Assembly: GCA_004138175.2 (NCBI GenBank)
Contig: RYFE02000001.1
Coordinates: 310,001-374,000 of the forward strand
DNA length: 64,000 bases
Direction of reading: 5' to 3'
From: Chloroflexales bacterium ZM16-3
Lineage (GTDB): Bacteria; Chloroflexota; Chloroflexia; Chloroflexales; Chloroflexaceae
Of the stretch, positions 1-53,292 are shown piece by piece (the first letter of the stretch is position 1; the number at the start of each line of letters is the position of its first letter). The translations under genes were made by a program, and so were the position numbers. The notes under the pieces are model-generated. The model saw only the letters and a program-made list of their open reading frames with translations, was not told where the DNA came from and did no database searches.

Positions 1-726
1 ACGCGCAGCGTTGTGGCCGCCCGCTACGCCCTGCTCACCCCCGAGGGTCTTGTCAGCGCGCCGCTGCCCGGCTGGCCTGGCGCGACATGCGTCGTCGTGA
101 TCAGCCCGGCCATGGGCGCCCGTTTTGCCCAGATCTTCGTCACCCTCGGCCCCGACGCCTCGGGCGCGGGCCATCGCCCGGACGAGGAGCTGCTACTCTT
201 TGTGCGCGAGGGTGCCGTCAGCCTGGAGGCCGGTGATCTGCGCGCCCGCCTCGGCCCTGGCGGCTACGCCTACATCCCTCCCGGCTGCGCCTACCGCATT
301 GCGCCGGACGAATCGACGGCCCAGTTGCTGGTCTTCCAGCGGCGCTACCTGCCCCTGCCCGGCGTCGCCACGCCCGCCCCCCTGGCTGGCCACGAGCAGG
401 AGATCGTCGGCGCACCTTTCATGGGCGATGAGGCCGCCGTCCTCAAGAACCTCCTGCCCGACGTGCCCGGCTTCGATATGGCGGTCAATATCTTCACCTT
501 CCAGCCCGGCGCGACCCTGCCCATCGTCGAGACCCACATTATGGAGCACGGCCTCCTGATGATCCAGGGCCAGGGCATCTACCGCCTCGCCGGTGACTAC
601 CACCCTGTTCAGTCAGGCGATGTGATATGGATGGCTCCCTACTGCCCGCAGTGGTTCGTGGCCACCGGCAAGACCCCGGCACGCTACATCTACTATAAGG
701 ATGTCAACCGCGACCCGCTTGTCTGA
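1..726 (+). CDS. allE: (S)-ureidoglycine aminohydrolase, bicupin, probably 5' partial
   Basis: Releases ammonia from (S)-ureidoglycine to give ureidoglycolate, a late step of allantoin breakdown in the cytoplasm. Two cupin halves are visible. The second contains ETHIMEHGLLMIQGQGIYR followed by DVIWMAPYCPQWF and a C-terminal YKDVNRDPL, all close to what I remember of the E. coli enzyme. A GTG at 13 can serve as a start and gives 237 aa, but the frame is open to the window edge and the E. coli protein is about 24 residues longer, so the true start is probably outside. It is followed by an allantoate amidohydrolase and a xanthine dehydrogenase-type subunit, which supports a purine catabolism role. 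Family assignment is firm. Confidence 0.88.
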   Translation, partial: TRSVVAARYALLTPEGLVSAPLPGWPGATCVVVISPAMGARFAQIFVTLGPDASGAGHRPDEELLLFVREGAVSLEAGDLRARLGPGGYAYIPPGCAYRIAPDESTAQLLVFQRRYLPLPGVATPAPLAGHEQEIVGAPFMGDEAAVLKNLLPDVPGFDMAVNIFTFQPGATLPIVETHIMEHGLLMIQGQGIYRLAGDYHPVQSGDVIWMAPYCPQWFVATGKTPARYIYYKDVNRDPLV

Positions 727-785: not shown

Positions 786-808
786 AACGGGGATATGTGG
801 GAACACCA

Positions 809-2050
809 ATGGAACTGAGTATTGACACCGCCACCGTCATGGCCGACCTCGACGCGATCGCCGCCTGCTCATCCTCGCCGCCGCCTGGGGTCACGCGCGT
901 CCTCTATAGCGCCGCCGATATGGAGGCGCGGGCCTACCTGCGCGCCCGCTGCGCCGAGGCCGGTCTGGTGCTGCGCGAGGATGGCCTGGGTAATCTCTTC
1001 GCCCGCTGGGTCGGCAGCGCGCCCGACCTGCCCGCCGTCGCCAGCGGCTCCCACATCGACGCCATCCCTGACTCGGGGCGCTACGATGGCACCGTGGGCG
1101 TTGTTGGCGCCCTAGAGGCTATCCGCGCGCTCAAGCGCGCCGGGTTCATGCCCCGACGTAGTATCGAGTTGCTGCTCTTCACCGCCGAGGAGCCAACCCG
1201 CTTCGGTATCGGCTGCCTGGGCAGCCGGGCGCTCTGCGGCGCGCTCACCCCCGCGCAACTGCGTGAGCAGCGCGACGCCGCCGGGCGGGGCCTGGAGGAG
1301 TTGCGTGCCGAGGCCGGCTTCAGCGCGCCCCTGGAGGATGTGCAGCTCCCCGCAGGTCTCTACCACGCCTTTGTCGAGCTCCATATCGAGCAGGGGCCGA
1401 TGCTAGAGACCGAGGGCCTGCCGATCGGGGTCGTGCGCGCCATCGCCGCCCCGGCCAGCCTGCGCGTCAGCCTGCGCGGCGTCGGCGGCCACGCCGGGGC
1501 CGTGCTGATGCCCGGCCGCCGCGACGCGCTGCTGGCCGCCGCAGAGATCGCCCTCGCCGTCGAGCAGGCCGCCCTCAGCACCGGCAGCCCCGACACGGTG
1601 GCAACCACCGGCGTCCTGCGCATTGAGCCCGGCGCCGTCAACTCCATCCCCAGCGCCGCCACCCTGGAGATCGACGTGCGCGATATCGCCGACGAGCCGC
1701 GCGACGCTGCCCTCAGCGCCATCCGCGAGTCGGTCGTCGAGATCTGCGAGCGCCGGATCATCGCCTACACCGTCGCTATGCTCAACGCCGACCCGCCCGC
1801 CACCTGCGCCCCCGCCGTGGTCGAGGCTGTCGTCCGCGCATGCGGCGAGCTGGGCCTGCACTACCAGATGATGGTCAGCCGGGCCTACCACGACAGCCTG
1901 TTTATGGCCCGCATCTGTCCCACGGCGATGATCTTCATCCCGTGCCGGGGCGGGGTCAGCCACCGACCCGACGAGCTCTCCTCCCCTGAGCAGATCGCCG
2001 AAGGGGTCGCCGTCCTCGCCCGCAGCCTGGCGACGCTGTCGCTTGAATAA
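809..2050 (+). CDS. allC: Allantoate amidohydrolase (M20 family)
   Basis: Zn/Mn-dependent M20 amidohydrolase that converts allantoate to ureidoglycine, the substrate of the gene just upstream. Metal ligands are visible in order: GSHIDAIPDSGRYDG (His and Asp), TAEEPTRFG (Glu-Glu), HIEQGPMLE (His) and RAYHDSLFMA (His) near the C terminus. The length of 413 aa is normal. I chose the ATG at 809; a GTG at 797 in the same frame adds four residues. N-carbamoyl-L-amino acid hydrolases and beta-ureidopropionases share this fold, so the substrate rests mainly on the neighbour. Confidence 0.82.
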   Translation: MELSIDTATVMADLDAIAACSSSPPPGVTRVLYSAADMEARAYLRARCAEAGLVLREDGLGNLFARWVGSAPDLPAVASGSHIDAIPDSGRYDGTVGVVGALEAIRALKRAGFMPRRSIELLLFTAEEPTRFGIGCLGSRALCGALTPAQLREQRDAAGRGLEELRAEAGFSAPLEDVQLPAGLYHAFVELHIEQGPMLETEGLPIGVVRAIAAPASLRVSLRGVGGHAGAVLMPGRRDALLAAAEIALAVEQAALSTGSPDTVATTGVLRIEPGAVNSIPSAATLEIDVRDIADEPRDAALSAIRESVVEICERRIIAYTVAMLNADPPATCAPAVVEAVVRACGELGLHYQMMVSRAYHDSLFMARICPTAMIFIPCRGGVSHRPDELSSPEQIAEGVAVLARSLATLSLE

Positions 2051-2062
2051 TGTTGAATTGTG

Positions 2063-2121
2063 AATGTTGAATGTTGAATGATCTGAACTATCGATCTGCG
2101 CAACATTCAACATTCAACATT
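2063..2121. repeat. Heptamer hairpin, unit GAATGTT
   Basis: Two perfect 18-nt arms (2063-2080 and 2104-2121) made of tandem GAATGTT and its complement. The element fills the gap from just after the allC stop to 5 bp before the next ATG. No Shine-Dalgarno sequence is visible between it and that ATG. Confidence 0.85.
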
Positions 2122-2126
2122 ACCTT

Positions 2127-3635
2127 ATGTGGAACACCTACTTCCAGCCCGATAGCCTCGCGTCCGCCCTATCTCTGCTGGCCGCCCACCCCGCAGCCCG
2201 CGTGGTGGCTGGCGGCAGCGATGTGATTGTGGAGCTGAGCCGGGGCGTGCGCCCTGCCGAGACCCTGATCGATATCTCGCGGGTCGCCGGGCTACGCTAC
2301 CTGCGGGCCGAGGGCGACTGGATCGCCATCGGTGCCCTGGCCACCCACAATATGGTCATTGCGTCGGACGCCTGCCTGGTCGGTGCCCTGCCGCTGGCCC
2401 AGGCATGCCTGGAGATCGGCGCGCCGCAGATCCGCGCCCGCGCCACCGTCGCCGGCAACCTGGTCACCGCCTCGCCCGCCAACGATACAATCACCCCGCT
2501 GATCGCCCTCGGCGCCGAGCTGTCTCTGATCAGCGCCGAGGGCGAGCGCAGCCTGCCCCTGAGCGCGTTCTACCTGGGCGTCCGCCGCACCGTCTTGCGC
2601 CCCGGCGAGCTCGTGCGCGAGATCCGCCTGCCCGCCCTCGTCGGCCGCCGCCGAGGCATCTTTCTCAAGCTCGGCCTGCGCCGCGCCCAGGCGATCTCGG
2701 TGATCAACGTGGCCGTCGTTATCGAGCAGGCCGATGACTCCCCGGACTCCCTGATCCTCTCGGCCCGCATCGCCCTCGGCTGCGTCGCGCCCACGATCGT
2801 CCGCGCCCCCGCTGCCGAGGCGTTCTTGATCGGCAGACCCCTCGATTCCGCCATCTGCGCCGAGGTTGGTCGGCTTGCTGTCAATGCCGCCACGCCTATC
2901 GACGACCTGCGTGGCACGGCGGACTACCGCCGCCACGCTGTGGCCGCCCTGGTGACGGATGCCCTGGAGCGTCTGGCCGCCGGCACCGAGCGCCAGGGCT
3001 GGCCCGCCCGCCCCGTGCTGCTGGAGTCGGGAGTCGGGAGTCGGGAGTCGGGAGTCGGGAGTCGAGGCAATGATCAAAGCGCCCCTCTCGTCTCCGCCCT
3101 GGCCACGGTCAACGGCGCTCCCGTCGCCCTCTCGCCCCACAAGACCCTGCTCGACGCGCTGCGCGAGGACGCCGGGCTGACCGGCACCAAGGAGGGCTGC
3201 GCCGAGGGCGAGTGCGGCACCTGCACGGTCTGGCTCGACGGCCAGGCTGTGATGGCATGCCTCGTGCCAGCCGCCCAGGCCCACGGCGCTAGCGTCACCA
3301 CCATCGAGGGCCTCGCCGCTGCCTACGCCCCAACCCCCAACCCCCAACCCCCAACCCCCAACCCTCAACCCCCAACCCCCAACCCCCAACCCCCAGACAG
3401 GCTGCACCCGCTTCAGGCCGCCTTTATCGCCAACGGTGCCGTCCAGTGCGGCTACTGCATCCCTGGCATGCTCATGGCCGGGGCCAAGCTGCTCGACGAG
3501 CGGGCTGACCCCGACACTCCCGCCATCCAGTCCGCCCTGAGCGGCAACATCTGCCGCTGCACCGGCTACCGCAAGATCATCGCGGCGGTGCATGAGGCCG
3601 CCGGGAGCGTTCAAGAGAGGGACACCCTATCTTGA
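2127..3635 (+). CDS. Xanthine dehydrogenase-type subunit: FAD domain fused to 2Fe-2S domains
   Basis: Carries electrons from a molybdopterin subunit (not in the window) through two 2Fe-2S clusters and FAD. Residues about 1-175 form the FAD-binding domain (AGGSDVIVEL, ATVAGNLVTASPANDT) and about 180-285 the CO-dehydrogenase flavoprotein C-terminal domain. About 310-385 is a plant-type ferredoxin domain (CAEGECGTCTVW) and about 420-502 the second 2Fe-2S domain (CGYCIPGMLMAG, NICRCTGYRK). The order FAD then FeS is the reverse of eukaryotic XDH. Both linkers are encoded by in-frame 7-base repeats (3023-3064 and 3328-3390). It overlaps the next gene by 4 bp. Substrate assignment to xanthine depends on the ureide genes upstream. 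Confidence 0.85.
   Translation: MWNTYFQPDSLASALSLLAAHPAARVVAGGSDVIVELSRGVRPAETLIDISRVAGLRYLRAEGDWIAIGALATHNMVIASDACLVGALPLAQACLEIGAPQIRARATVAGNLVTASPANDTITPLIALGAELSLISAEGERSLPLSAFYLGVRRTVLRPGELVREIRLPALVGRRRGIFLKLGLRRAQAISVINVAVVIEQADDSPDSLILSARIALGCVAPTIVRAPAAEAFLIGRPLDSAICAEVGRLAVNAATPIDDLRGTADYRRHAVAALVTDALERLAAGTERQGWPARPVLLESGVGSRESGVGSRGNDQSAPLVSALATVNGAPVALSPHKTLLDALREDAGLTGTKEGCAEGECGTCTVWLDGQAVMACLVPAAQAHGASVTTIEGLAAAYAPTPNPQPPTPNPQPPTPNPQPPDRLHPLQAAFIANGAVQCGYCIPGMLMAGAKLLDERADPDTPAIQSALSGNICRCTGYRKIIAAVHEAAGSVQERDTLS
3023..3064 (+). repeat. Six perfect GGAGTCG heptamers inside a gene
   Basis: Six uninterrupted copies of GGAGTCG (42 bp, 14 codons) lie exactly between the FAD half and the 2Fe-2S half of the fused protein and encode the period-7 peptide ESGVGSR. 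The GGG runs are spaced by 4 nt, so the coding strand can in principle form a G-quadruplex. Confidence 0.95.
3328..3390 (+). repeat. Nine CCCCAAC heptamers inside a gene
   Basis: Nine tandem units of CCCCAAC (one with a T change) encode a TPNPQPP repeat between the two 2Fe-2S domains. The template strand reads GGGGTTG, again a possible G-quadruplex. The same unit occurs outside genes at 52801-52886. Confidence 0.95.
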
Positions 3636-51913: not shown

Positions 51914-52696
51914 CTACGCCTCGGAAGAGGGCGCGCCCATCACATTAAAGCCAGCATCAACATACATAATCTCGCCGGTGATGCTGCTGGCCAGGTCGGA
52001 GCAGAGGAATACCGCAGCGTTGCCCACATCGTCGATAGTGACATTGCGGCGCAGAGGGGCGACCTCGGCAAATGCCCGGTGGAGGGTGCGGAAGCCGGCG
52101 ATGCCATTGGCGGCGAGGGTGCGGATGGGGCCGGCGCTGATCGCATTGATCCGGATGCCGCGCGGGCCAAGGTCGTCCGCCAGGTAGTAGACGCTGGCCT
52201 CCAGAGCCGCCTTAGCCACGCCCATAACATTGTAGTTGGCCATCACCTTGCGGGCGCCGTGATACGTCATGGTAAGGATCGAGGCATTCGGCGCGAACAG
52301 CTCATCTGCGGCCTTGACGAGGGCGGTGAGCGAGTAGACGCTGACCTCCATCGCCGTCAGGAAACCGGCGCGAGTGGTGCGCGTGTAGAGGCCGTTCAGC
52401 TCGTCTTTTTTGGCGTAGGCGACCGCGTGGACGAGGAAGTCGATCTGGCCGAAGGTCTCGCGGGCGCGCTCCATAAGGGCGGCGATCTGCTCGTCACTGT
52501 TCACATCGCAGGGCTCGATAAGCTTCGCACCGAGACTCTCGGCCAGCGGCCGCACCCGCTTCTCCAGGATCTCGCCCACATAGGTGAAGCCGATCTCGGC
52601 GCCCTCGCGGTGCATCGCCTGCGCGACCCCCCAGGCGATCGAGTGATCATTGGCTAATCCGAGGATCAGCCCTTTTTTGCCGTCCATAAGGCCCAT
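51914..52696 (-). CDS. fabI: Enoyl-ACP reductase (NADH), FabI type
   Basis: Last reduction of each round of fatty-acid elongation. [20 protein letters not shown] is the FabI NAD site, the active-site Tyr/Lys are in [13 protein letters not shown], and [14 protein letters not shown] is the substrate loop. The 260-aa length is right. AAGGAG lies before the ATG, and TGGTAAGAT further up could be an extended -10. It stands alone. Confidence 0.94.
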
Positions 52697-52759
52697 CGCC
52701 GCAACTCCTTGTATCTAACTGCCAGGTCTCGAATGCTGCGGCGTATCTTACCATATCGT

Positions 52760-52886
52760 GGGAGTCGGGGGTTGGGAGTCAGGAGTCAGGAGTCGGGAGC
52801 GCCCCAACCCCCAACCCCTAACCCCCAACCCCCAACCTCCAACCCCCAACCCCCAACCCCCAACCCCCAACCCCCACCCTACCCCC
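52760..52886. repeat. Heptamer arrays GGGAGTC and CCCCAAC
   Basis: GGGAGTC-type units (52760-52800) followed by about 12 CCCCAAC units with three variants (52801-52886). Both unit types are those inside the xdh fusion. The arms can pair in part. It fills the gap between fabI and the YccF gene and overlaps the last codons of the latter. Confidence 0.9.
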
Positions 52887-53292
52887 GACCTAGCGTGATC
52901 ACCGCAGGCACCCGGTTGAACATCCAGAAGCCGAAGGGCATGCCGATGATCACACTGCACAACGCCCATGCCGCCGCCATCCAGAGCGCGCTGAACCACC
53001 AGCCCACCAACAGGAAGTAGATTGCCCGCAGCAGGAAAGGCGTCTGGCGCATTGACCGCTGGTAGACCCGCCCGTCGTTGCTGATCACTAGGTCGGCGCG
53101 CTGCGGCTGGAGGGTGGACACCTGGGGCAGCCGGTTCAGCATCCACAGGCCAAGCGGCAGCCCGATGATCGTCACGCAGAAGACCCAGGCGATAGCTGCC
53201 CAGACCCCGCTGAACCACAGGCCAAAGAGAATAAAGTAGATCGCGCGGATGATCAGGTTGGTGCCGCGCTCCTGGACGATGACGGTATTCAT
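52879..53292 (-). CDS. YccF-domain membrane protein
   Basis: A 137-aa protein with two copies of the YccF domain (residues about 14-60 and 85-130), each with two helices and the pattern RAIYFxLxGxWFSxxW followed by IIGxPxGxWMxNRxP. Found in many bacteria; function unknown. The C terminus (LGRG) runs into a heptamer array. It stands alone on the minus strand. Confidence 0.85.
   Translation of the reverse strand: MNTVIVQERGTNLIIRAIYFILFGLWFSGVWAAIAWVFCVTIIGLPLGLWMLNRLPQVSTLQPQRADLVISNDGRVYQRSMRQTPFLLRAIYFLLVGWWFSALWMAAAWALCSVIIGMPFGFWMFNRVPAVITLGRG

Follow-up and report, generated by a model that had tools for sequence, protein, structure and literature searches.

The 64,000-nucleotide stretch of the Chloroflexales bacterium ZM16-3 genome analysed here (the window; contig RYFE02000001.1, positions 310,001 to 374,000) contains a gene in which a flavin adenine dinucleotide (FAD) part and two [2Fe-2S] domains share one chain, joined by two linkers that are each encoded by a tandem array of 7-base units. 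The fusion of the FAD and iron-sulphur (FeS) parts is old. The heptamer arrays are probably its passengers and not its cause, maintained by replication slippage, with unit sequences (words) that drift at slots tolerant of changes in length and sequence.

The fusion gene and its two linker arrays

Both arrays lie wholly within the open reading frame (ORF) at 2127-3635 and encode the peptides LESGVGSRESGVGSR and APTPNPQPPTPNPQPPTPNPQPP. The sequence-only reading of the window had placed six perfect GGAGTCG units at the FAD/ferredoxin junction and nine CCCCAAC units between the two 2Fe-2S domains, in frame and encoding 7-residue repeats (ESGVGSR and TPNPQPP), and all of this was recovered with TRF and domain searches (Table 1). 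Shuffling the window 100 times gave perfect period-7 runs of at most 20 bases, which excludes a chance origin for the linker arrays. In the AlphaFold2 model, most domain blocks had a predicted local distance difference test score (pLDDT) of 82-98, against 53-61 for the linker blocks, which were without secondary structure (53 for linker 1, block 301-310; 61 and 56 for linker 2, blocks 401-420). The linker 2 region spans 41 residues in the window protein, compared with 16-25 in most relatives. The linker arrays likely act as a plain flexible spacer, and a specific function of the linker peptides is not indicated.

Sequence and fold searches matched the medium and small chains of CO dehydrogenase and chain A of the Rhodobacter xanthine dehydrogenase (XDH; 1jro_A). 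The presence of FAD_binding_5, CO_deh_flav_C, Fer2 and Fer2_2 places the protein among FAD-FeS subunits of molybdenum hydroxylases in the broad sense, and cysteines 358, 363, 366, 378, 441, 444, 476 and 478 are invariant across the homolog alignment. The product is predicted to be the small (FAD/FeS) subunit of an XDH-type molybdenum hydroxylase, with an XDH role likely because of this homology, the purine-degradation neighbours (ureidoglycine aminohydrolase and a relative of allantoate amidohydrolase) and the existence of a molybdenum (Mo) subunit partner. XdhA of Rhodobacter capsulatus (1jro chain A) likewise combines FAD and two [2Fe-2S] domains in a single chain, with all domains clearly homologous, and the purine-degradation neighbours are a further likeness to the XdhA (TIGR02963) system. 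However, the order is FeS-FAD in XdhA and reversed, FAD-FeS, in the window protein, which scored 303.6 bits against the NCBIfam model xanthine_xdhA (TIGR02963), under the curated cut-off of 467, and whose partner Mo subunit is encoded at a distant locus. A Mo-subunit-like gene was present in 62 of 72 relative loci, mostly directly 3' of the fusion. In the window genome no Mo-subunit gene adjoins the fusion gene, and the ortholog lies remote from it on contig C51 (290974-293127, strand -; L169:10977-13127).

The scan of species genomes yielded these 72 loci, nearly all with one uninterrupted frame spanning the FAD and FeS halves. Approximately 70 fused homologs, with 41-78% identity, were found in three phyla (Chloroflexota, Eremiobacterota and Acidimicrobiia), and nearly all have ordinary linkers. 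By linker tabulation and periodicity scan, heptamer linker arrays among the homologs were restricted to the window gene, its counterpart in Oscillochloris sp. ZM17-4 and a Chloroflexales metagenome-assembled genome (L048). The words of the latter differ: its linker 2 has CAGCCTT units, and its linker 1 a degenerate ACCGCCG-like array. Two further homologs have other linker periodicities, a hexamer repeat in L086 and an irregular 15-base period in L087. From these sequence comparisons, the FAD and FeS parts appear to have been fused long before the Chloroflexales diversified, and the gene is mostly free of repeats in relatives.

Table 1. Positions of the fusion gene, its domains and arrays, and related features of the window
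Feature	Position	Strand	Evidence and remarks
FAD and two [2Fe-2S] domains in one chain	2127..3635	+	502-residue ORF; Pfam, NCBIfam and PDB matches; ~70 fused homologs
FAD_binding_5, residues 5-170	2139..2636	+	Pfam E 2e-45; pLDDT mostly ~90 or more
CO_deh_flav_C, residues 182-282	2670..2972	+	Pfam E 7.5e-22
Linker 1 array, (GGAGTCG)6.0, 100%	3023..3064	+	TRF; encodes ESGVGSRESGVGSR; between CO_deh_flav_C and Fer2
Fer2 [2Fe-2S], residues 328-374	3108..3248	+	Pfam E 3.7e-7; cluster cysteines conserved in alignment
Linker 2 array, (CCCCAAC)9.7, 96%	3328..3395	+	TRF; encodes TPNPQPP repeats; between Fer2 and Fer2_2
Fer2_2 [2Fe-2S] binding domain, residues 424-489	3396..3593	+	Pfam E 5.9e-27
Intergenic mixed array, GGAGTCA/GGAGTCG units then CCCCAAC x10.7	52759..52876		TRF and sequence; between called genes 51914-52696 and 52879-53292
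Heptamer hairpin directly 5' of the fusion gene	2049..2121		TRF; AATGTTG arm 2049-2080, CAACATT arm 2101-2121
(S)-ureidoglycine aminohydrolase, purine degradation context	13..726	+	TIGR03214, 285 bits, cut-off 200
Allantoate amidohydrolase / hydantoinase-carbamoylase family amidase	797..2050	+	TIGR01879, 364 bits, cut-off 204

Heptamer arrays across the genome and in a sister species

A repeat census was performed on 1.25 Mb of window-genome stretches, with genes called by a simple home-made codon-model caller. Perfect arrays of at least three copies numbered 167 for period 7, the next period being 8 with 18. Coding sequence makes up 87% of the total, but only 49 of the 167 heptamer arrays (29%) fall in genes and 118 do not (p ~1e-65); an inverted partner was present within 300 bp for 55. 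The linker arrays are copies of dispersed elements that occur between genes too. The non-coding array said to contain both linker words does so in part: CCCCAAC is exact there, while the other word is approximate, mainly a mixture of GGAGTCA and GGAGTCG. Three consecutive GGAGTCG units gave 284 matches in the window genome and none in 60 relatives, a set with five members of the same genus. For CCCCAAC the corresponding counts were 128 in the window genome and 46 in ZM17-4, and for ACAGGGG 49 and 152. The 18 period-8 runs on window-genome contigs are never wholly within a gene. A reversed control pattern (three GCTGAGG units) was abundant in several relatives (G005, G015, G034 and G004, the last being ZM17-4), which suggests that other Chloroflexales species have dominant heptamers of their own. 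The same GGAGTCG array was also found on a contig of a viral collection (IMGVR_UViG_3300031471_000034; L224:4536-4591).

Arrays inside genes are mostly inter-domain or terminal, as in PriA, FtsK, pyruvate dehydrogenase E2, Era, LeuA and a MiaB-like enzyme. The core genes priA, ftsK, pyruvate dehydrogenase E2 and era, with in-frame arrays, are at L198:15599-18310, L197:12359-14935, L109:8832-10106 and L187:34-1506. A 3114-residue ORF (L183-L184; contig C13:91086-100430 of the window genome, G000) contains seven heptamer arrays; three or more of these recur at 330 bp spacing within a longer repeat.

To compare the arrays between species, approximately 0.69 Mb of the window genome was set against 0.75 Mb of ZM17-4, which is syntenic with the window contig at ~83% DNA identity, and words were compared from perfect runs. 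An array was present in ZM17-4 at 30 of the 49 sites with both flanks mapped (61%); the corresponding figures were 5 of 119 for random sites and 12 of 82 for intergenic sites lacking an array of their own. The 30 shared sites comprise 20 with the same word, 4 with one mismatch and 6 with two or more. Linker 1 is among these six most-changed sites, with (GGAGTCG)6 in the window genome and an imperfect (GGGGACA)n in ZM17-4, both in frame. The orthologous intervals are 76 bp each, and the peptide repeat changes from ESGVGSR to DRGQGTG. A length-variable loop of the Mo subunit is another of the six, with AGCCCTC units in the window genome and AATCTGC arms in ZM17-4. Linker 2 aligns with a degenerate array of the same CCCCAAC word, and the hairpin 5' of the fusion gene retains both word and site. 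Equal orthologous lengths (76/76 and 59/59 bp) were observed at several word-swapped sites, and length differences at in-gene sites were mostly multiples of three (0, 6, 27, 75 and 261 bases). At C1:366047-366105, the loop is alike in the two species, but the units of both arms differ, essentially without exception, by the same single base. At C1:355504, the two species carry the inter-arm loop in opposite orientations, suggesting exchange between arms.

Two palindromic repeats were also observed. The ZM17-4 palindrome GTAAGGGCGCAGCAG...CTGCTGCGCCCTTAC occupies sites orthologous to heptamer arrays of the window genome, namely the orthologs on C1 of ZM17-4 of C1 152849, 196709, 207706 and 208753, and the ortholog on C106 of C51 236175. 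Its 11-base core has 35 matches in 400 kb of ZM17-4 and 4 in the 374 kb counterpart. The second, with core TTCGCTTCGCTCAG, has 56 matches in 1.25 Mb of the window genome and 2 in 400 kb of ZM17-4. It sits in the loop between heptamer arms at C1 ~50560 of the window genome and in the ZM17-4 counterpart of C1 200690.

Origin and turnover of the arrays

In the proposed mechanism, both unstructured and variable interdomain linkers would have been occupied, in the Oscillochloris lineage, by arrays from the genome-wide heptamer population. Stop-free arrays would persist in genes provided that their net length preserves the frame and that the position is a flexible segment. Replication slippage would lengthen and shorten the arrays, and point mutations of single units would spread through the array and both inverted arms by slippage, template switching or recombination between arms. 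The word at a fixed site would in this way drift stepwise between species, with the slot, the frame and often the hairpin retained. The relationships among the words support stepwise mutation followed by homogenisation. The 30 words of the window genome form 30 one-substitution pairs, compared with 9.1 expected for random words of matched composition (no more than 20 in any of 300 trials), and 21 of the 30 belong to one connected group, compared with 4.9 expected. The two linker 1 words are joined by the path ACTCCCG-ACTCCTG-ACCCCTG-ACAGGGG (GGAGTCG-GGAGTCA-GGGGTCA-GGGGACA), whose words occur as arrays in the window genome. A more general and tentative proposal, at somewhat less than an even chance, is that Oscillochloris arrays are fixed slots, genic and intergenic, whose words are rewritten in place array-wide and in both arms, such that inherited slots come to hold a set of words particular to each species and linker sequence changes blockwise with length and frame kept.

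Several points weigh against this account of slippage and drift, and some of them favour an alternative in which different mobile elements, heptamers or other hairpins, inserted independently at the same permissive slots. We infer slippage and homogenisation from two species. The words at 202841 and 264563 are 2-4 bases apart, with loops that are not clearly homologous, and the array there may have been lost and re-inserted at the same spot. The ZM17-4 slots without heptamers are rich in unrelated palindromes, with a stem of at least 12 in 9 of 15, compared with 19 of 71 window-genome intergenic spacers that lack arrays (p = 0.004). These palindromes include in-gene sites (68941 and 283453), and other elements can therefore take over slots too, contrary to pure drift. 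The preference of in-gene arrays for positions outside Pfam domains (13 of 20, 7.3 expected, p = 0.004) was calculated with some approximated Pfam boundaries and is not absolute, given that about one third of in-gene arrays are within Pfam envelopes, and some in-gene arrays lie near uncertain starts of the home-made gene calls. Nevertheless, the one-substitution network, the equal lengths at several swapped sites, and the unit-by-unit change in both arms at 366047 around a conserved loop speak against independent insertion, and it is considered unlikely as the source of the word differences, though a serious contender.

The remaining alternatives concern function, the fusion itself and the assembly. 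Selection of the arrays for function, either in expression control through G-quadruplexes or hairpins or through linker peptides that tune electron transfer or assembly, would be consistent with the enrichment in genes of words with a GGG/CCC tract (31 of 76, compared with 18 of 91 for other words, p = 0.004), with the retention of hairpins of some kind at intergenic slots, and with the formation of G-quadruplexes in vitro by GGGNATC heptamers, as given in the available text of PMC4692102. Selection is nonetheless improbable given that the linker 1 peptide is wholly different in the sister species at constant length, that most relatives have ordinary linkers, and that in-gene arrays occur in both orientations. 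The sequence-only reading had further suggested that an intergenic repeat between two separate genes deleted the stop codon and thereby produced the fusion. Array 1 does sit exactly at the FAD/FeS junction, and unfused pairs in FAD-then-FeS order exist in related genomes. However, the same uninterrupted fusion recurs mostly without heptamers in the homologs from three phyla, which is the result that the sequence-only reading had itself named as refuting its proposal, and the GGAGTCG array, its word being confined to the window genome among the 61 genomes searched, is far younger than the fusion. The FAD and FeS genes of the more distant paralogs L023 and L024 are unfused and share a frame, separated by one TAA and a short spacer, and no heptamers were found at their junctions. 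Loss of the stop therefore required no repeat, and a repeat-made fusion is rejected. Finally, the draft genome consists of 127 contigs and tandem repeats are prone to mis-assembly, but the frame is unbroken through both arrays, both positions are occupied by arrays in ZM17-4 too, and hundreds of arrays are found across the genome; the probability of an assembly artefact is close to negligible. Passenger arrays in an old fusion, with drifting words, therefore remain the preferred reading.

Comparison with known repeat systems

Rickettsia palindromic elements occur in frame in protein-coding genes and show that small repeats are tolerated there, as do the in-gene heptamer arrays, but they are palindromes of roughly 100-150 bp and not tandem heptamers. 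In the literature searched, no report of heptamers in Chloroflexota was found; in the available text of a 2014 survey, Chloroflexus and Roseiflexus come up only in connection with oligopurine and mirror repeats. Heptamer repeats as such have been described before. New here are the heptamer population in Chloroflexota, the change of words at several orthologous slots with intermediates, and the occurrence in protein linkers.

G-rich GGGNATC heptamers, with inverted pairs and conserved positions, have been described in Xanthomonas and Nostoc (Rehm et al. 2015, PMC4692102). As far as the available text of that paper describes them, they are likewise dispersed tandem 7-mers, mostly intergenic, often in inverted pairs and often at the same site in relatives. 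The window arrays share with the GGGNATC and short tandemly repeated repetitive (STRR) types exact 7-base units in many copies, intergenic over-representation and a sizeable share of inverted pairs. In sequence they differ: the window word GGGAGTC matches GGGANTN, the relaxed pattern given there, but no stricter one, and CCCCAAC and most other window-genome words do not fit GGGNATC or GGGGA(C/T)T (PMC4692102). The Chloroflexota population is in another phylum and has many unlike words, AT-richer ones included, and its in-gene share of 29% compares with 7-11% for GGGNATC in the same text. Words differ at orthologous sites of the window genome and ZM17-4, a protein linker included, whereas that text reports no word exchange for GGGNATC. 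The STRR heptanucleotides of heterocystous cyanobacteria (Calothrix), as cited in PMC4692102, likewise comprise several dispersed words per genome, but belong to another phylum and have other words, a distinction drawn from their description.

Heptamers are the most abundant intergenic tandem repeats over a wide range of prokaryotes according to the available text of the SPADE survey, which states their function as unknown and, unlike the sister comparison performed here, is without orthologous-site comparison (PMC6344855). Given sister genomes with ~60% shared slots, several holding different words linked by single steps, the origin, persistence and change of arrays become directly testable. 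Both enzyme subunits bear arrays, and each has one site at which the sister species differ in word, which would provide a simple route to blockwise rewriting of linkers. A parallel to such rewriting is the P6b stem-loop of the Nostoc trnL intron, in which Class I and Class II 7-nt motifs replace each other (Kaasalainen et al. 2015, PMC4476775). There too, the two arms of a fixed slot carry one or the other of two words, and replacement has happened repeatedly and independently. P6b is, however, a single RNA locus, whereas the window genome presents many sites, coding linkers among them, and has intermediate words that connect the differing words.
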